From positions 1 through 64,000 of the forward strand of contig NZ_JOIR01000034.1 in assembly GCF_000720115.1 (NCBI RefSeq): a stretch of DNA of 64,000 bases, given 5' to 3'. Under the pieces are notes generated by a model. It searched no databases and had not been told where the DNA came from. It saw only the letters and a program-made list of their open reading frames with translations. The translations under genes and the position numbers were made by a program. Shown one piece after another: positions 6,966 through 25,252 of the stretch. The first letter of the stretch is position 1. Each line of letters opens with the position of its first letter. This stretch comes from Streptomyces sp. NRRL F-2580 (GTDB taxonomy: Bacteria > Actinomycetota > Actinomycetes > Streptomycetales > Streptomycetaceae).

Positions 6966-7601
6966 ATGGGACTGGACACGACGGACACCGGTACTGGACC
7001 GGTCACGGTCCAGCGGGGCCTTCCGGCCGGCGCCGAGCGGCGGGCGGCCGAGCTGTACTGGGAGGCTTTCGGCCGTAAACTCGGCCCCGCGCTGAACCCG
7101 CCGGACAAGGCGGTGCCCTTCATCGCCTCGCACCTGAACGCCGATCGTGCGGTGTGCGCGCTCCTCGACGGGCAGCTCGTCGGCCTCGCCGGCTACCAGC
7201 TTGGCGGCCGCGCCCTCACCGGGGGATCGGCCTCCGCCGTGCTGCGCGTGTACGGACACTTGCGGGGGCTGCCCAGACTCCTGCTCCTCGCCCTGTTCGA
7301 ACGCCACCCGGCCCCCGGACAGCTCGTCATGGACGGCATCGCCGTGGACCCGGGCATACGCGGGCGTGGCGTCGGGAGCCTGCTCATCGAGGAAGTGGCC
7401 GCCGTCGCGGCGGAGCAGCACTGCCGGGAGATCAGACTGGATGTGATCGACATCAATCCGCACGCCAGGGCCCTGTACGAGCGGCGCGGCTTCACGGCCG
7501 TGCGGACCGCGCGCACCCCCTACCTGCGCGGGCTGCTGGGGTTCGGCGCGGTGACCACCATGCGTCGCGCCGTCGGAACGAGAGGGGCGAGAGAACTGTG
7601 A
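6966..7601 (+). CDS. GNAT-family N-acetyltransferase
   Basis: A 211-residue acetyltransferase. The acetyl-CoA binding motif is visible as MDGIAVDPGIRGRGVGSLLI (around residues 122-141), followed by the family's C-terminal 'INPHARALYERRGF'. An AAAGAGGG ribosome site precedes ATG 6966. It overlaps the next gene by four bases (GTGA), so the two are translationally coupled and the enzyme probably serves whatever the PaaX-like regulator controls. The acceptor substrate cannot be read from the sequence. Confidence 0.85.
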   Translation: MGLDTTDTGTGPVTVQRGLPAGAERRAAELYWEAFGRKLGPALNPPDKAVPFIASHLNADRAVCALLDGQLVGLAGYQLGGRALTGGSASAVLRVYGHLRGLPRLLLLALFERHPAPGQLVMDGIAVDPGIRGRGVGSLLIEEVAAVAAEQHCREIRLDVIDINPHARALYERRGFTAVRTARTPYLRGLLGFGAVTTMRRAVGTRGAREL

Positions 7602-8482
7602 GCACCGAGGCGGACCACGTCGAGGTCCCCACCCGCATGCTCGTCCACGCGCTGATCCGCGAGGACGGCACCGTCGGCGCGGACGAGCTGTACACCGTCG
7701 CCAACACCCTGGGCATGAGCGACCAGCAGGTGCGGCTGTGCATCAAACGCCTCGTGGCCGAGGGCCGGTTCACCCACGAGGGCCGTGGCCGCAAGGCGGA
7801 GCTGCACGCGACCGCGGACACCACGCGTGCCCTGGCTCCCAACGCGGACTTCCTCCGGCACGCGTTCCAGCAAGACGCCGGGCTCGCTCCCTGGGACGGT
7901 GTCTGGCACCTGGCCGCCTTCGCGGTGCCCGAATCGGCGCGCACGGCCCGGGACGCCCTGCGTGAGACGCTCGTCCACCTCGGCGGCGCCCCGCTGCAGG
8001 GCGGACTGTACGTCTGCGCCAACGCCTGGGAACCGTACGTCGAAGAAGCGGCCCACCGCCTCGGCGCCCATGGTGCGCTCACCCTTCTCACCACGACCGA
8101 CCTGCGCAAGGGCGACACCCGAGAGCCTGTCGAACTCGCCCGCCGCCTGTGGTCCCTGCACGAGATCGCCGACCGCTACCACCGCCTCAGCCGCATCGCC
8201 CGGCCCCGCCTCGCCCGGCTCACCGGCCCTGCCGGACTCTCCCCGTCCGCACTCCTCACCATCGCGGTCGAACTTGCCGCCGAACTCACCCGCGCCATGG
8301 AGCCCGACCCGCTGTTGCCGCCTCAGCTCCTGCCCCAGCCCTGGCCTGGCACCCAGGCCAGGGAGCTCATCGCCCGGTGCTGGGCGGTCCTGCACGAACG
8401 AGAAGGCGGCGAAGCCCGCCCAGCCCTCTTCCGCCTCTACGCGGACATCACCCGAGAAGCTGCAGACCGGGTCGTGCGCTGA
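7598..8482 (+). CDS. PaaX-family transcriptional regulator
   Basis: A 294-residue protein starting at GTG 7598 inside the previous stop codon. An N-terminal winged helix (residues about 10-75, 'LGMSDQQVRLCIKRLVAEGRF') is followed by a Cas2-like middle domain ('WDGVWHLAAFAVPES') and a helical C-terminal domain, the three-part layout of PaaX proteins, which usually repress aromatic catabolism by sensing CoA thioesters. No phenylacetate genes are nearby, so its targets are probably the GNAT gene and the divergent hydrolase. Confidence 0.8.
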   Translation: MSTEADHVEVPTRMLVHALIREDGTVGADELYTVANTLGMSDQQVRLCIKRLVAEGRFTHEGRGRKAELHATADTTRALAPNADFLRHAFQQDAGLAPWDGVWHLAAFAVPESARTARDALRETLVHLGGAPLQGGLYVCANAWEPYVEEAAHRLGAHGALTLLTTTDLRKGDTREPVELARRLWSLHEIADRYHRLSRIARPRLARLTGPAGLSPSALLTIAVELAAELTRAMEPDPLLPPQLLPQPWPGTQARELIARCWAVLHEREGGEARPALFRLYADITREAADRVVR

Positions 8483-17431: not shown

Positions 17432-18220
17432 CTACCGGGCCCTCGCCACCAGGCTCTGCAGATACCCCCGGCCGCACGCGAGCTGTGCGGGCAGGTCGGC
17501 GGCGTCCGGGTACCAGCGTTTCTCGTACTCCCAGCAGAGCCAGCCGTCCGCCGGTGCGGCGGCCACCGCTTCGGGGAGGGGGAGCACCCCGGTGCCGAGA
17601 CCCGTCGGGGTGAGGTCCTGCGCTGACCGTACGTCCTTCACTTGTACGTAGCCCAGGTGCGCGGCCAGGGCCTGCCGGGACCGGGCCGGGGGTTCGCCGG
17701 CGAGCCAGGTGTGCAGGATGTCCCAGACGGCGCCGACGCCCGGGTGCGCGACGCGGTCGAGCACCCGGGCGGCTGCGGCGGCGGTGCGATGGGAGTCGTG
17801 GGTCTCCAGCAGGATCCGCACGCCGTGCCGCTCGGCGAACGGCGCCGCGGCGAGCAGGCGGCGCACGGCGTGGGCGTCAGCGGCCGCCTCGGGCAGGTCG
17901 GCGCCCCCCGGAAAGACGCGGACGTACGGGGCCTCCAGATCGGCGGCGAGCTGGATGAGGCCGCGCAGTTCGGTGAGGACCGGCTCGTCCGCGCCGGGGG
18001 CGGCGACCCTGGCGTAGCCCGCGACCGCGAGGGCTGTGACGCCTGCGGCGGTGAGGGTCCGCAGTCCGGCAGCCCGCTCGGTGGCCGGGCTGTCGGGGTG
18101 CAGGGGTTCCTCTGGATGGGCGCGCAGTTCGAGGCCGTCGAAGCCGTGGGAGGCCGCGAGGGCCGCGCTGCAGTCGAGCGGCGCGCCGGGCAGGCCGAGC
18201 GTGGAGAAGGCGTACTTCAC
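17432..18220 (-). CDS. Sugar phosphate isomerase/epimerase (AP-endonuclease-2 TIM barrel)
   Basis: A 262-residue TIM-barrel protein from GTG 18220, overlapping the LacI stop by four bases, so the two are co-translated. It opens with VKYAFSTLGLPGAPLD and has metal-ligand positions in 'RILLETHDSH', AVWDILHTW and 'YVQVKDVR', ending with 'GWLCWEYEKRWYPD', typical of xylose-isomerase-like enzymes that rearrange or cleave sugars and keto-sugars with a divalent metal. Together with the divergent oxidoreductase-aldolase-isomerase genes it suggests one catabolic pathway. The substrate is unknown. Confidence 0.8.
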   Translation of the reverse strand: MKYAFSTLGLPGAPLDCSAALAASHGFDGLELRAHPEEPLHPDSPATERAAGLRTLTAAGVTALAVAGYARVAAPGADEPVLTELRGLIQLAADLEAPYVRVFPGGADLPEAAADAHAVRRLLAAAPFAERHGVRILLETHDSHRTAAAAARVLDRVAHPGVGAVWDILHTWLAGEPPARSRQALAAHLGYVQVKDVRSAQDLTPTGLGTGVLPLPEAVAAAPADGWLCWEYEKRWYPDAADLPAQLACGRGYLQSLVARAR

Positions 18221-19293
18221 GGACGGCTCCCCTCGGTCGGCGGCGGCGCGGTGGAGGCGCGCACCATCAGCTCGGTGGGCAGCGTGGTGATCCCGCCCGG
18301 TGGCTGCGGTCGGCGGCCGGTGACCAGCTGGGCGGCGAGCACGCCCGCCTCGCGCAGGGGCACCCGGACGGTGGTGAGCGCGGGGGCGGTGTCCGCACAG
18401 AAGGGCAGGTCGTCGAATCCGGCGACGGACACGTCCTCGGGGATCCGTATCCCCTCCTCGCGCAGGGCGGCGGCGACTCCGGCGGCGATGGTGTCGTTGG
18501 CGGCCGCGACGGCGGTGAAGGGTGCCCCGCGGCGGAGCAGTTCCCTGGCGGCGTCGTAGCCGGCGGATCGTTCGAAGGCGGCGTGCAAGGTGAGAGCAGC
18601 ACAGGCTTCGGGGAGGTCGGGGTCGTGTCGCAGCAGGGCGGCGCGGTGTCCGGCGAGCCGCTCGCGGGTGGTGCTCAGCCCCTGGGGGCCCGCGACGTAG
18701 GCGATGCGCCGGTGACCGAGTGTCAGCAGGTGCTCGGCGAGGCGGAAGGCACCGCCGTGGTCGTCGAACATCACGGTGGTGACGGGCAGTCCGGCGGGGA
18801 CGGGCAGCGGAGGCCGACCGCACAGGACGACGGGGGCGCCGCCTGCGGCCATCCGCGCGATGCGGGCGGCGAGTGCATCGGCGTGCTCGGGGTCCTCGAC
18901 GGCGCCGCCGGTGAGGACGATCCCGCCGGCGCGCTGCCCCTCCAGCAGGGTCAGGTAGGACAGTTCGGCCGCGGGGTCGCCTTCGGTGTTGCAGACGACG
19001 GCGAGCCGGCGGCCTCCCGTTTGGCCGGTGGTCGCCAGGGCTCCTTGCAGGGAGCCGGCGAGGATCCCGAAGAAGCTGTCGGCGACGTCGTGGACGAGGA
19101 CGCCGACGAGGTCGGAGGTGGCGGCCGCCAGCGCGCGGGCGGGGCCGTTGGCGATGTACCCGAGCTCTTCGACTGCGCGCTCGACCCGGGTTCGGGTGGA
19201 GCCGGCCACCGGGTATCCGCCGTTCAGCACGCGCGAGACCGTGGCGGGCGATACGCCCGCCTGCGCCGCGACCTCGGCCAGAGTCACCGCCAT
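18217..19293 (-). CDS. LacI-family transcriptional regulator
   Basis: A 358-residue repressor starting at ATG 19293 behind a GGAGAGG site. The helix-turn-helix TLAEVAAQAGVSPATVSRVL is at residues 4-23 and the hinge follows. The C-terminal sugar-binding domain contains PFTAVAAANDTIAAGVAAAL and 'IPEDVSVAGFDDLPF'. It is divergent from the Gfo/Idh gene, and the 169-bp gap holds GAAAGCGCTTTC palindromes of the type LacI proteins bind. It therefore most likely represses both arms of the cluster and itself until its sugar effector appears. Confidence 0.9.
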   Translation of the reverse strand: MAVTLAEVAAQAGVSPATVSRVLNGGYPVAGSTRTRVERAVEELGYIANGPARALAAATSDLVGVLVHDVADSFFGILAGSLQGALATTGQTGGRRLAVVCNTEGDPAAELSYLTLLEGQRAGGIVLTGGAVEDPEHADALAARIARMAAGGAPVVLCGRPPLPVPAGLPVTTVMFDDHGGAFRLAEHLLTLGHRRIAYVAGPQGLSTTRERLAGHRAALLRHDPDLPEACAALTLHAAFERSAGYDAARELLRRGAPFTAVAAANDTIAAGVAAALREEGIRIPEDVSVAGFDDLPFCADTAPALTTVRVPLREAGVLAAQLVTGRRPQPPGGITTLPTELMVRASTAPPPTEGSRP

Positions 19294-19363
19294 GCTGCAC
19301 CTCTCCTTCAGGACCCGGGTCATCGTCTCATCCGGTGTCTGCATCTCCATACTCCCCGTTTCA

Positions 19364-19375
19364 GAAAGCGCTTTC
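19364..19375. promoter_or_regulatory. LacI-type palindromic operator, site 1
   Basis: GAAAGCGCTTTC, a perfect 12-bp palindrome 71-82 bases upstream of the LacI gene start. It is an identical copy of the core of the site at 19432. The central CG pair flanked by symmetric arms is typical of LacI-family operators. Confidence 0.8.
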
Positions 19376-19378
19376 CAT

Positions 19379-19392
19379 CACTCGATCGAGTG
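19379..19392. promoter_or_regulatory. Second kind of palindrome between the operators
   Basis: CACTCGATCGAGTG is a perfect 14-bp palindrome lying between the two GAAAGCGCTTTC sites and differing in sequence. It may bind another regulator or be part of a composite control region. No second regulator gene is nearby. Confidence 0.5.
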
Positions 19393-19430
19393 TTGCGCGG
19401 CCAGCTTCCGCCGCCCTAGCCTGATCGAAG

Positions 19431-19444
19431 AGAAAGCGCTTTCT
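19431..19444. promoter_or_regulatory. LacI-type palindromic operator, site 2
   Basis: AGAAAGCGCTTTCT is a perfect 14-bp palindrome 19-32 bases upstream of the oxidoreductase start, directly before its GGAGGGGG ribosome site. Binding here would block the promoter or early transcription of the rightward operon. Site centres are 68 bases apart, which would allow looping. Confidence 0.8.
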
Positions 19445-19462
19445 ATCGATGGAGGGGGAACC

Positions 19463-20614
19463 ATGGAGCGCAGGACGATCAAGATCGCGATGAACGGCGT
19501 CACTGGGCGCATGGGGTACCGGCAGCATCTGGTCCGTGCGCTGCTCACCCTGCGCGAGCAGGGCGGTCTCGATCTCGGCGACGGAACGGCGCTCTGGCCG
19601 GAGCCGGTTCTCGTGGGGCGCCGGGAATCCGCCCTGCGGGCCATCGCCGAGCGGCACGGCCTGGAGCACATCAGCACGGATCTCGCGGCCGTGCTGGCCG
19701 ATCCGGAGGTCGAGATCTACTTCGACGCACAGGTCACCGGCGCCCGCGAGGCGGCGGTCCGCCAGGCCATAGCGGCGGGCAAGCACGTCTACTGCGAGAA
19801 GCCGACGGCCCTGACCTTCGAGGCCTCGCTCGAACTGGCCCGGCTGGCTACGGCTGCCGGGATCAAACACGGCGTGGTGCAGGACAAGCTGTTCCTGCCG
19901 GGGCTGCTCAAGCTGAGGCGGCTGATCGAGAGCGGATTCTTCGGCGAGATCCTGTCCGTGCGCGGAGAGTTCGGGTACTGGGTCTTCGAGGGCGACTGGC
20001 AGACCGCGCAGCGGCCGTCGTGGAACTATCGCGCGGAGGAGGGCGGAGGCATCGTCGCCGACATGTTCCCGCACTGGGAGTACCTGCTCCACGAGCTCTT
20101 CGGCCGGGTGCGCACGGTGCAGGCCCTCACCCGCACGCACATCGGCCGTCGCTGGGACGAGGCGGGCAAGCCCTATGAGGCCACGGCAGACGACGCCGCG
20201 TACGGGATTTTCGAACTGGAAGGCGGTGCGGTCGCCCAGATCAATTCGTCCTGGGCGGTCCGGGTCCACCGGGACGAACTGGTGGAGTTCCAGGTGGACG
20301 GCACACACGGGTCGGCCGTCGCCGGGCTGCGCGGTTGCCGGATCCAGCACCGCGGGGCAACGCCGAAGCCGGTGTGGAATCCCGATCTGCCGCAGACCGA
20401 GACCTTCCGCTCCCAGTGGCAGGAGGTGCCGGACAACAGTCCCGCCGACAACGGCTTCAAGGCCCAGTGGGAGCTCTTCCTACGGCATGTCGTCCTCGAC
20501 GAGACCTGGTGGTGGGACCTGCTGGCCGGTGCGCGCGGAGTACAGCTCGCCGAGCTGGGCCTGCGCTCCTCGGCCGAGGGCCGGCGGCTGCCGGTGCCGG
20601 AGGTGGCGCTGTGA
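19463..20614 (+). CDS. Gfo/Idh/MocA-family NAD(P)-dependent sugar oxidoreductase
   Basis: A 383-residue dehydrogenase. The N-terminal Rossmann fold starts KIAMNGVTGRMGYRQHL (a variant of the usual GxGxxG), and the catalytic-region motif GKHVYCEKPTALTF (Glu-Lys-Pro) is intact. The C-terminal sheet domain holds 'GGGIVADMFPHWEYLLHEL'. Family members oxidise or reduce sugars, often to 3-keto sugars. First gene of a three-gene operon with four-base overlaps, behind a LacI operator. It probably makes the keto intermediate that the following enzymes cleave or isomerise; that is inference. Confidence 0.85.
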   Translation: MERRTIKIAMNGVTGRMGYRQHLVRALLTLREQGGLDLGDGTALWPEPVLVGRRESALRAIAERHGLEHISTDLAAVLADPEVEIYFDAQVTGAREAAVRQAIAAGKHVYCEKPTALTFEASLELARLATAAGIKHGVVQDKLFLPGLLKLRRLIESGFFGEILSVRGEFGYWVFEGDWQTAQRPSWNYRAEEGGGIVADMFPHWEYLLHELFGRVRTVQALTRTHIGRRWDEAGKPYEATADDAAYGIFELEGGAVAQINSSWAVRVHRDELVEFQVDGTHGSAVAGLRGCRIQHRGATPKPVWNPDLPQTETFRSQWQEVPDNSPADNGFKAQWELFLRHVVLDETWWWDLLAGARGVQLAELGLRSSAEGRRLPVPEVAL

Positions 20615-21768
20615 GCATCCGACTCCCCTCGGCCGACGGCGGGTTCCGCGTGCACCGGCCGAACCCCGATCCGTATCCCCCACTCACCTGCGGCCCGGCC
20701 CGCAGCCGCACCTTCTACGCGGCCGCTCACGTGGTCGCCGATCCGCTCGCCGCGTCGGCCGAAGCCGGGCCGGCGGTCGACTGGGAGGCCACGCTGGCCT
20801 TCCGGCGCCGCCTGTGGGCGCAAGGGCTCGGGGTGGCCGAGGCCATGGACACCGCGCAGCGCGGCATGGGCCTGGACTGGCCGACGGCGGCGGAGCTCAT
20901 CCGCCGGTCGGCGGCCGAGGCCCGGGCGGTGGGCGGCCGGATCGTCTGCGGCGCGGGCACGGACCAGCTTACGGATGGCCGCACGTACTCCCTCAACGAG
21001 ATCGCCGCGGCGTACGAGGAACAGCTCGCGCACATCGAGGCGTGCGGGGCGGGGGCCGTCCTGATGGCCTCGCGGGCCCTGGCCGCGCCGGCGCGTGCCC
21101 CCGAGGACTATCTGGAGGTGTACGGCGGCCTGCTCCGGCAGAGCGTACGGCCGGTGGTGCTGCACTGGCTGGGGCCCATGTTCGACCCGGCGCTGGCCGG
21201 CTACTGGGGTCACGCGGATCTCGACGCGGCCACGGACGTCTTTCTGAAGATCATCGCCGATTGTCCCGAGAAGGTGGAGGGGATCAAGGTCTCGCTGCTG
21301 GACGCGGAGCGGGAGGTGGACATCCGGCGCCGGCTGCCGGCCGGCGTGCGCTGCTACACCGGCGATGACTACCACTACCCCGAACTGATCGCCGGGGACG
21401 GGGAGCTGGCCAGCGACGCGCTGCTGGGGATTTTCGACCCGATAGCCCCGATCGCCGCCCGGGCCGCGATCGCGCTCGACCGGGGCGATATCGACGGCTT
21501 CGGTGAGTTGCTGGACCCGACGGTCTCCCTGTCGAGACATCTCTTCGCCCCGCCGACCCGTTTCTACAAGACGGGGGTGGTGCTGCTGGCCTGGCTGGCC
21601 GGGTACCAGGACCACTTCACGATGGTGGGCGGGCTGCAGTCGGCCCGCTCCCTCCCCCACCTGGCGACGGCGTACGAACTGGCCGACGGTCTGGGACTGT
21701 TCCCCGATTCCGAGCTCGCGGAGGACCGGATGCGCCGGCTGCTCGCCGTGTACGGGGTGTCGTCATGA
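20611..21768 (+). CDS. DUF993 protein, dihydrodipicolinate-synthase-like aldolase fold
   Basis: A 385-residue protein from GTG 20611, overlapping both neighbours by four bases. It matches the DUF993 family, distant relatives of DHDPS/NAL class I aldolases. 'DWPTAAELIRRSAAEARAVG', 'VVLHWLGPMFDPALAGYW' and EKVEGIKVSLLDAEREVDIR can be aligned to the barrel, and a Lys in 'GIKVSLLD' sits where the Schiff-base Lys is expected. Activity in this family is not established as far as I know. By context it would cleave a keto-sugar or keto-acid made by the upstream dehydrogenase. Confidence 0.8.
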   Translation: MSIRLPSADGGFRVHRPNPDPYPPLTCGPARSRTFYAAAHVVADPLAASAEAGPAVDWEATLAFRRRLWAQGLGVAEAMDTAQRGMGLDWPTAAELIRRSAAEARAVGGRIVCGAGTDQLTDGRTYSLNEIAAAYEEQLAHIEACGAGAVLMASRALAAPARAPEDYLEVYGGLLRQSVRPVVLHWLGPMFDPALAGYWGHADLDAATDVFLKIIADCPEKVEGIKVSLLDAEREVDIRRRLPAGVRCYTGDDYHYPELIAGDGELASDALLGIFDPIAPIAARAAIALDRGDIDGFGELLDPTVSLSRHLFAPPTRFYKTGVVLLAWLAGYQDHFTMVGGLQSARSLPHLATAYELADGLGLFPDSELAEDRMRRLLAVYGVSS

Positions 21769-22598
21769 GCGCGGCGCCGGAGCGGTTCAGCCTCAATCAG
21801 GAGACGGTCCGCCAGTGGTCCGTGCCCGAACTGGTCGCCGGGTGCGTGGCGGCCGGAGTGGGGGCCGTCGGGCTCTGGCGGGGACCCGTCCAAGGGTTCG
21901 GGGTGCGGGAGACGGCGAAGCTGGTCGCCGGGGCGGGGCTGCGTGTGAGCTCGCTCTGCCGCGGTGGGTTCTTCACCGCGGCGGATCCGGCCGGCCGGGC
22001 GGCCGCGCTGGACGACAACCGCAGGGCGGTGGAGGAGGCCGCCGAGCTGGGCGCCGACACGCTGGTCCTGGTCTCGGGCGGGCTGCCCTCGGGCGATCGG
22101 GACCTGGTCGGGGCGCGTGGACGGATAGCGGAGATCCTGGGCGAGTTGGCGCCGTGGGCCGGCGGGCACGGGGTACGGCTGGGGATCGAGGCGCTGCATC
22201 CGATGTTCGCCTCGGACCGCTGTGTGGTCTCCACCCTCGGCCAGGCCCTGGACATCGCCGAGCAGTTCCCGGCGGAGCAGGTGGGGGTGGTGGCCGACTC
22301 GTATCACCTGTGGTGGGACGAGCGGCTGCCCGCCGACCTGCTCCGGGCCGGCGGGTCCGGGCGCATCGTGTCCGTCCAGGTGGCCGACTGGGTGACCCCG
22401 CTGCCCGAGGGCGTGCTGTGGGGGCGCGGACAGCTCGGCGACGGATCCATAGACCTTCGGGGCTTCCGGCACCTGGCCGACACGGCCGGCTACCGGGGCC
22501 CGGTGGAGGTGGAGATCTTCAGTCCGGGGCTGTGGGCCCGGGACGGTACCGAGGTGCTGCGGGAGGTGATCGAGCGCTACCGCGAGCACGTGGACTGA
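21765..22598 (+). CDS. Sugar phosphate isomerase/epimerase, second copy of the fold
   Basis: A 277-residue TIM-barrel protein (ATG 21765, ATGA overlap with the DUF993 stop). Metal-site motifs are visible in 'VRLGIEALHPMF', VGVVADSYHLWW and GYRGPVEVEIFSP. It is clearly different in sequence from the isomerase at 17432, so the locus uses two distinct enzymes of this superfamily, not a duplicate. Last gene of the rightward operon. No transporter follows. Confidence 0.85.
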   Translation: MSAAPERFSLNQETVRQWSVPELVAGCVAAGVGAVGLWRGPVQGFGVRETAKLVAGAGLRVSSLCRGGFFTAADPAGRAAALDDNRRAVEEAAELGADTLVLVSGGLPSGDRDLVGARGRIAEILGELAPWAGGHGVRLGIEALHPMFASDRCVVSTLGQALDIAEQFPAEQVGVVADSYHLWWDERLPADLLRAGGSGRIVSVQVADWVTPLPEGVLWGRGQLGDGSIDLRGFRHLADTAGYRGPVEVEIFSPGLWARDGTEVLREVIERYREHVD

Positions 22599-23620: not shown

Positions 23621-25252
23621 GTGCCCACCATGGACCAGGAGCACATAGCCGGACCGGCCGGTGACGGCGAAGGCGCAGGCAGGCGGCGGTTCCTCGCGAT
23701 CGCGACGGCGGCGGCCACGGCTGCCGGGCTCGGCGCCGTGGCAGGCTGCGGGGGCGGGGACGACGGCGCCGACCGGCTGGGCGGGGCCGGCGGGTCGGCG
23801 GCGCCGGGCGGGAAGCCCTCGGGGGCGAGTGCGCAGGGTTTCGACGTCAAGGCCGAGAACGCGAAGCAGGGCCACGCCGACTGGCCGGTCACCAAGGCGG
23901 GGCCGGCGCGGGCCATCGAGGGCTTCGCGGACAAGGTCAGTGTGCTGCCCGGCGAGTCCTTCGGTCTGCACGTGTCGACCACCGCGCCGCGGTTCACCGT
24001 CTCCGCCTACCGGATGGGCTGGTACGGCGGGGCCCGGGCCCGGCTGGTGTGGCGCTCCGAGGCCCTCCCGGGGGCGCGCCAGCCGGAGCACACGGTGGAC
24101 CCGGGCACGCGGATGGTCCGCACGCGCTGGGCCCGTACCACCACGGTCGAGACCAAGGACTGGCCGGAGGGCTGCTACCTGCTGCGGCTCGACGCTCAGG
24201 GCGGCGAGGGGCAGCGCTTCGTACCCATGACCGTCCGGTCTGCGGCGACGGCCGGGCGTACGGTCGTGGTCAACGCGGTGGCCACCTGGCAGGCGTACAA
24301 CCGGTGGGGCGGCTACGGCAGCTACGACGGCCCCAGCGGCGGCTACGCCTCGCGCTCGCTCGCCGTGACCTTCGACCGGCCGTACGAGTACGACGACGGC
24401 GCGGGCCTGTTCCTGGTGTACGAGGCTCCCCTGATCGCGCTGGCCGAGCGGCTCGGCATACCCCTGGCGTACGCGACCACGACCGACGTGGCACGGGAGA
24501 AGCGGCTGCTGGAGGGTGCGGCCGCGGTGCTCTCGCTCGGGCACGACGAATACTGGTCCCCGGATCAGCGGGCCCACTTCACTGCCGCCCGCGACGCCGG
24601 CACCAACATCGCGGTCCTGGGAGCGAACTGCTGCTTCCGCCGGATCCGACTGGAGGCCTCCGACCTGGGGCCGGACCGGACGCTGGTCTGCTACAAGTCC
24701 TCCTACGACCAGGACCCGGGGTTCAAGCGGGGCCATCCGGCGACGGTGGACTTCCGTTCGGCGCCCGGCGCGGACCCGGAGAGCTCGTTGCTCGGCGTGA
24801 TCTACGACGGCTATCCGGTGGACGCCCCGTACGTAGTGACCAACCCGGGCCACTGGCTGTTCGAGGGCACCGGCGCGCGGGCCGGCGATCGCTTCGAGCA
24901 CCTGGTCGGGGTGGAGTACGACAAGGTCAACACCGGTTTCCCGACGCCGCGGCCGATCGAGATACTGGCCCACTCACCCGTGGTGTGCGAGGGCCGCCCC
25001 AGCCACCAGGACACGGCGTACTACACGGTGGCGAGCGGGGCGGGCGTGTTCGCGACCGGCACGATGCGGTGGGTGGAGGCCCTGGACGCGACGGGCGACG
25101 GCCGCAGCGGGAGGAACCACGGGCTGGACGCGCGGTCCGGGGCGCTGACCACCCGGGTGACGGAGAACCTCCTGCGGGTGCTCGCCGAGGGCCCGGCGGG
25201 CCGGTCGCATCCGGCACAGGACAACGTCAAGGCGGTGTACGGGGGTTCGTGA
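23621..25252 (+). CDS. Tat-exported lipoprotein, N,N-dimethylformamidase large-subunit-like
   Basis: A 543-residue protein from GTG 23621 (ATG 23630 is an alternative). The N-terminus has a twin-arginine pair (GRRRFLAIATAAATAAGLG) and a lipobox ending AVAGC (Cys about 45), so it is folded before export and anchored to the membrane. The mature part matches the DmfA2 large-subunit fold of N,N-dimethylformamidase (LSLGHDEYWSPDQRAHFTAA, 'TNIAVLGANCCFRRIRLE'). In that family the enzyme is cytoplasmic and uses iron. Here an extracellular relative of unknown substrate is likely. Confidence 0.75.
   Translation: MPTMDQEHIAGPAGDGEGAGRRRFLAIATAAATAAGLGAVAGCGGGDDGADRLGGAGGSAAPGGKPSGASAQGFDVKAENAKQGHADWPVTKAGPARAIEGFADKVSVLPGESFGLHVSTTAPRFTVSAYRMGWYGGARARLVWRSEALPGARQPEHTVDPGTRMVRTRWARTTTVETKDWPEGCYLLRLDAQGGEGQRFVPMTVRSAATAGRTVVVNAVATWQAYNRWGGYGSYDGPSGGYASRSLAVTFDRPYEYDDGAGLFLVYEAPLIALAERLGIPLAYATTTDVAREKRLLEGAAAVLSLGHDEYWSPDQRAHFTAARDAGTNIAVLGANCCFRRIRLEASDLGPDRTLVCYKSSYDQDPGFKRGHPATVDFRSAPGADPESSLLGVIYDGYPVDAPYVVTNPGHWLFEGTGARAGDRFEHLVGVEYDKVNTGFPTPRPIEILAHSPVVCEGRPSHQDTAYYTVASGAGVFATGTMRWVEALDATGDGRSGRNHGLDARSGALTTRVTENLLRVLAEGPAGRSHPAQDNVKAVYGGS

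Follow-up and report, generated by a model that had tools for sequence, protein, structure and literature searches.

A LacI-linked Gfo/Idh-DUF993-isomerase locus of Streptomyces and its possible role in acidic sugar catabolism

The first 64,000 nucleotides of contig NZ_JOIR01000034.1 of Streptomyces sp. NRRL F-2580 (the window) contain, at positions 17432-22598, five genes for a LacI-family regulator, a Gfo/Idh/MocA dehydrogenase, a DUF993 protein and two AP_endonuc_2 isomerases. Which compound does such a set degrade, and by what chemistry? An earlier note, made from the sequence alone, had proposed that an unusual sugar or glycoside is oxidised and then cleaved. The answer favoured here, with about even confidence, is that the set breaks down an acidic sugar under repression by LacI; the likeliest substrates are uronic acids and their oxidised derivatives, such as an aldarate or keto-uronate. 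The system was rated as a form of oxidative sugar-acid catabolism, itself a known kind. DUF993 has a solved structure, no published function for it was found, and it is present in about nine of every ten sampled Streptomyces genomes; identifying its reaction would close a gap in our picture of carbon metabolism in the main antibiotic-producing genus.

Gene organization

The five genes described in the earlier note were all recovered as open reading frames with Pfam matches, in two divergent arms. On the minus strand lie the regulator gene (18217-19293; Pfam LacI; start taken as the ATG after GGAGAGG) and isomerase 1 (iso1; 17432-18220; AP_endonuc_2 TIM barrel, GTG start). The plus strand carries the Gfo/Idh/MocA dehydrogenase (19463-20614; Pfam GFO_IDH_MocA; closest solved relative 3oqb), the DUF993 protein (20611-21768; 569 bits to the Pfam profile) and isomerase 2 (iso2; 21765-22598; closest solved relatives 7vpf, 3ju2 (SMc04130) and 3qc0). 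Each of the three within-arm junctions is a 4-bp overlap (GTGA, GTGA and ATGA). Both isomerases score above the Pfam gathering score for PF01261 (115 and 134 bits vs 31.1) and, being 29% identical over 184 residues, are distant relatives. Between the arms are two exact copies of the palindrome GAAAGCGCTTTC, at 19364-19375 (70 bp before lacI) and 19432-19443 (19 bp before the Gfo/Idh ATG). Chance would yield 0.02 such sites in the window if one mismatch is tolerated, and the whole 8,445,760-bp assembly has these two exact copies and no more. The overlaps, the two different isomerases and the identical palindromes had all been noted before and stand.

Conservation and regulation

Two samples of loci were compared, cited below by working labels for loci (L), genomes (G) and contigs (C). 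The Streptomyces-type set comprised the best 80 named loci of at least 586 relatives, a few of them from Kitasatospora or Actinacidiphila; the second set comprised 34 loci from 33 other actinobacterial genera, one genus giving two. The Gfo/Idh-DUF993-iso2 trio was complete in all 80 Streptomyces-type loci, with LacI in 77 and iso1 in 61; among the 72 loci that leave space for the minus arm, 61 had all five genes. In the other genera the trio kept its order in 33 of 34 loci (the exception, L264, is cut by a contig end, and in L268 the order is kept with broken frames), and iso1 was present in just two. The trio is therefore the core of the module and iso1 an accessory gene. The case raised in the earlier note, that these genes do not co-occur elsewhere, is clearly contradicted. 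G003, G080 and G100 each have a LacI ortholog and no trio, so regulator and trio are separable. In G003 (L306, 3-12100) relatives of lacI and iso1 stand beside ribose-operon genes, and DUF993 was not found in that genome.

DUF993 was present in 180 of 199 sampled Streptomyces genomes, in 88 of 296 genomes (31 of 114 genera) across the class and in 10 of 149 across the phylum, four of these ten being Streptomyces; it occurs in proteobacteria too. A DUF993 protein with 49% identity is also encoded at 7134-8273 of the 'Bacteriophage sp.' record MT835659.1 from human faeces, perhaps bacterial DNA.

A box centred on AGCGCT was found in all 77 scored lacI-Gfo/Idh intergenic regions of the Streptomyces-type loci (63 single, 14 double; 3 of the 80 loci were left unscored), and the 91 sites give the consensus AGAAAGCGCTTKCT. 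The window palindromes are 68 bp apart, and the same pair with the same spacing occurs in the eight closest named relatives (L032-L039); most other Streptomyces-type loci have a single GAAAGCGCTTGC. In the other genera a GNAAGCGCTTNC box lies within 400 bp of the core Gfo/Idh gene in 21 of 33 scorable loci; a looser tally of 27 of 38 adds L129, L307-L310 and a poor match in L266. That the five genes are one regulated unit is thus supported.

Fold of the DUF993 protein

By Foldseek searches, which rank families and in which absence from the list does not exclude a family, the DUF993 protein is a DHDPS-type (beta/alpha)8 barrel, in keeping with the resemblance to class I aldolases pointed out in the earlier note. 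Lys226 is conserved without exception in two sets of sequences (15 of 15 and 42 of 42) and falls on model strand 222-227. It is the candidate Schiff-base residue and would match the lysine that ends barrel strand 6 in the DHDPS/N-acetylneuraminate lyase family, an equivalence drawn from strand order and a weak profile alignment. With the operator in 77 of 77 loci and the co-conserved genes, this fold makes 'oxidise then cleave' a reasonable reading of the locus; the genes, their conservation and associations, the operator, the fold and the invariant lysine are observed, whereas substrate class, order of steps, aldol rather than dehydratase chemistry, C3 products and everything on the regulator's ligand are inferred.

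SMc04132 of Sinorhizobium meliloti is a DUF993 protein with a solved structure (PDB 4dnh, released 2012) and is uncharacterised. A table in PMC12542648 names it 'Uncharacterized protein' and SMc04133 'Putative oxidoreductase', and in the part of PMC11387232 consulted SMc04134 is given only as a regulator in computed networks. The portion of PMC9007349 consulted treats other DUF aldolases and 3-keto hydrolases and does not mention DUF993. In the open-access literature searched, no function was assigned to DUF993, 4DNH or SMc04130-35, and no mention of DUF993 or 4DNH was found.

Transport

An operon of a further Gfo/Idh gene (GfoB), DUF6807 and an ABC transporter with SBP_bac_1 and BPD_transp_1 (Pfam), which we take to be of CUT1 type, is also preceded by the box in Streptomyces, at 26 of 26 scored loci (25 strict, 1 loose). 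The sample consisted of the 30 best-scoring loci among matches in 129 genomes, with L288, L292, L294 and L302 unscored, and is therefore one of close orthologs. In G055, G096, G165 and G180 a LacI ortholog (61-64% identity) lies divergently beside the ABC operon, and the trio comes after it, preceded by another box. DUF6807 occurs in 125 of 180 DUF993-bearing and 4 of 19 DUF993-lacking Streptomyces genomes (Fisher p 5.5e-5, a test that ignores kinship); DUF6807 paralogs were counted together, and contig breaks may account for some of the missing DUF993 genes (G017). The support from this co-occurrence is weak. In the part of the literature consulted DUF6807 has one passing mention (PMC10971088). 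At L307 (9385-17900) DUF6807 (PF14100) is coupled to Gfo/Idh, a cupin-like protein (Cupin_2 just below cut-off) and an ABC transporter, sharing this type of operator.

The earlier note had held that no transporter is present and that the substrate must arrive by a shared one. The first part stands for this locus, and probably also for a dedicated transporter in the strain, whose closest substrate-binding proteins reach 24-30% identity; it fails for the system as a whole, and the second part is contradicted by the same-box ABC operon of relatives, placed within the locus in four genomes.

We regard as rather unlikely the alternative that the box is a common LacI-type operator of several regulators, in which case its presence would not link the ABC/DUF6807 operon with this pathway. 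Boxes of this kind are widespread: in 41 Streptomyces genomes 102 forward sites were counted vs 11 for a reversed control pattern, and the 64 loci read around such sites contain a variety of carbohydrate genes, many of them unrelated. This wide distribution also counts against the acidic-sugar reading itself. G102 (L299) retains the box, while neither DUF993 nor the LacI (E 1e-60) was found in its assembly of about 1420 contigs, and LacI without the trio in the three genomes named above points the same way. Against it stand the four genomes in which LacI ortholog, ABC operon and trio share one locus, and the related sets of other genera (L247 and L265, with a transporter; L260, without).

Because the box is widespread and each link comes from one genome, naming a transporter of the window strain by its operator is not claimed. 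Other one-mismatch boxes in its genome lie before a CBM6/GH16 protein (contig C61) and near a histidine kinase (contig C4). Such a box also precedes a third Gfo/Idh gene (contig C3; L138, 6678-7990), which has GAAAGCGCTTGC 39 bp upstream and is a possible further regulon member. On contig C28 (L140, 1341-7988) an ABC binding protein and a GH38 alpha-mannosidase have a one-mismatch box about 310 bp upstream.

Substrate class

Genes beside the trio in relatives refine the 'unusual sugar or glycoside' of the earlier note to a sugar acid or uronate. KdgD-type and MR_MLE genes stand beside it in 6 of the 34 loci of other genera, and in L265 an aldehyde dehydrogenase (ALDH)-like frame accompanies the trio and the KdgD-type gene. 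In G055, G096, G165 and G180 alike, a secreted protein (604 aa in L307) is encoded between transporter and trio. Over its full length it has the toroid and beta-sandwich fold of uronic-acid polysaccharide lyases and is a putative lyase; no Pfam match was found for it, and its 120 listed homologs are mostly named 'hypothetical protein' or left blank, with a few 'Heparinase' or 'Heparinase II/III-like'. The window strain genome (G000) encodes one glycerate kinase, away from the locus. Operator, transporter operon and dehydratase neighbours together narrow an open-ended substrate screen to a few acidic sugars.

The oxidative uronate/aldarate pathway consists of uronate dehydrogenase, a sugar-acid dehydratase, KdgD and ketoglutarate semialdehyde dehydrogenase. 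The KdgD-type and MR/MLE genes (with the ALDH-like frame in L265) that sit with the trio recall it, whereas that route runs without Gfo/Idh, DUF993 or AP_endonuc_2 isomerase. For the extended short-chain dehydrogenase/reductase (SDR) encoded in L265, no PDB relative was found at E 1e-20, so that a uronate dehydrogenase there is unproven. In myo-inositol catabolism IolG is a Gfo/Idh enzyme, IolE and IolI are AP_endonuc_2 proteins and IolJ is an aldolase. The division of labour is the same, Gfo/Idh oxidation, AP_endonuc_2 enzymes and aldol cleavage; the window locus differs in that its Gfo/Idh scores 48.8 against the IolG cut-off of 355, its aldolase is of another family, and it has no kinase or IolD/IolB-type gene.

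Gfo/Idh and AP_endonuc_2 enzymes also carry out the steps of levoglucosan catabolism. That route, described in the part of PMC7676230 consulted as dehydrogenation, elimination and hydration, is a parallel for a different and in our view unlikely reading, in which a neutral glycoside is oxidised to a 3-keto glycoside by Gfo/Idh, the AP_endonuc_2 enzymes cleave this by beta-elimination, and the 3-keto sugar is processed by DUF993 at a later stage. The window Gfo/Idh matches levoglucosan dehydrogenase weakly, at 68 bits, and a second Gfo/Idh, with DUF6807, is found under the same box. Both scores are far below the cut-offs, however, at 68 vs an equivalog cut-off of 650 and, for the disaccharide 3-dehydrogenase family, 22.5 vs 650, and the KdgD-type gene, the sugar-acid dehydratase, the lyase-fold protein and the acid-type transporters are left unexplained.

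DUF993 might instead be a Schiff-base dehydratase or decarboxylase like KdgD, one that takes away water or CO2 but leaves the chain of an oxidised sugar acid intact. The DHDPS superfamily includes KdgD-type dehydratases (PF00701), and the 6 loci with a KdgD-type neighbour are compatible with such a role; but a second KdgD-like step would be redundant next to a genuine KdgD-type gene unless the substrates differ, and the glycerate kinase suggests three-carbon (C3) products. This account we consider improbable.

Very improbable is a module for ribose or another pentose. Of the 70 named Streptomyces-type loci with enough room, 35 have two or more rbs genes downstream, an observation that also counts against an acidic sugar. 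The rbs operon is on the opposite strand with its own RbsR-like LacI, there are no rbs genes next to iso2 in the window, they are not the common neighbour in other genera, and G003 keeps lacI, iso1 and rbs genes without the trio. Ribose synteny was accordingly rejected as a substrate clue.

Several further observations weigh against the acidic-sugar reading. Its substrate clues come from relatives of the window strain, which itself had no KdgD above cut-off and no DUF6807 match at E 1e-30; for the lyase-like protein it gave no match in a search that had no positive control and so shows nothing. The clues are narrowly spread, four of the six KdgD-type/MR_MLE loci coming from one family (f62) and the lyase-like protein occurring in 5 of 144 loci (L307-L310 and L097, the last being G180 again), all from one small group of four Streptomyces genomes. 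The KdgD-like protein of L265 is above NF002958 and below the stricter equivalog TIGR03249 (270.7 vs 373.95). As hydroxypyruvate isomerase (TIGR03234, cut-off 353.45), iso2 scores 27.4 bits, and iso1 24.6. The DHDPS/N-acetylneuraminate lyase/KdgD superfamily consists of class I aldolases, with a GxxGE-type carboxylate-binding motif after strand 2 in the DHDPS/N-acetylneuraminate lyase family; a DapA-like protein of the window genome carries GTTGES. DUF993 differs in having MDTAQRG for GTTGE, within AMDTAQRGMG (Asp80, Thr81, Gln83 and Arg84 invariant), and an extra N-terminal region, and no match to a pyruvate site was shown. The PF00701 profile did not match it up to E 10, PF06187 alone doing so, and profile comparison with KdgD-type proteins was weak (probability 3%, E 0.015).

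Proposed pathway

For an acidic sugar, we infer the following order of steps. LacI would occupy the AGAAAGCGCTTKCT boxes until a pathway intermediate appears. After import of the substrate, Gfo/Idh would use NAD(P) to oxidise one hydroxyl, giving a ketone, and DUF993 would form a Schiff base through Lys226 and split the resulting keto acid into small fragments by retro-aldol cleavage, for example a 2-keto hexarate or 2-keto aldonate into hydroxypyruvate and a C3 aldehyde. Iso2, a distant relative of hydroxypyruvate isomerase, may interconvert a cleavage product, and carbon could leave as glycerate through the glycerate kinase encoded elsewhere in the genome.

DUF993 with other oxidising partners

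From 147 plasmid records with a DUF993 match, 22 were examined, picked for diversity; four lacked annotation there. DUF993 was accompanied by Gfo/Idh in nine (eight of these also with an isomerase), by acyl-CoA dehydrogenase and/or CoA-transferase in twelve, and by neither class in one. On a DUF993 tree of 62 rows, from which L131 and L132 were dropped as short matches and in which two rows fell in no group, each partner class needs 2 changes vs about 11 in shuffles. These counts suggest that DUF993 and the isomerase are a portable core with an exchangeable oxidising partner. A broader proposal is put forward tentatively, with the balance of probability against it: DUF993 would be a new Schiff-base aldolase subfamily without the usual pyruvate-carboxylate site, the trio an undescribed non-phosphorylating uronate/aldarate route through two C3 units to glycerate, and DUF993-isomerase a portable cleavage core with exchangeable oxidising front ends, either Gfo/Idh or, in rhizobia, an acyl-CoA dehydrogenase/SDR/CoA-transferase set.

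The CoA-linked cassette is conserved on rhizobial, roseobacter and other plasmids (L116, 2173-12820; L113, L115, L123, L130 and L133). It comprises GMC, aldo/keto reductase, CoA-transferase, enoyl-CoA hydratase, glycerate kinase or Dabb, acyl-CoA dehydrogenase, SDR, DUF993 and isomerase genes, usually with EtfBA, and looks like a separate undescribed pathway.

Neighbouring genes

No link to sugars was seen among the direct neighbours of the locus, which encode a protein with a weak HEAT-repeat match, an HTH_67 protein and a DMFA2_C protein. The last of these (23621-25252) resembles the dimethylformamidase beta-subunit and, as judged by eye, has a probable secretion signal.
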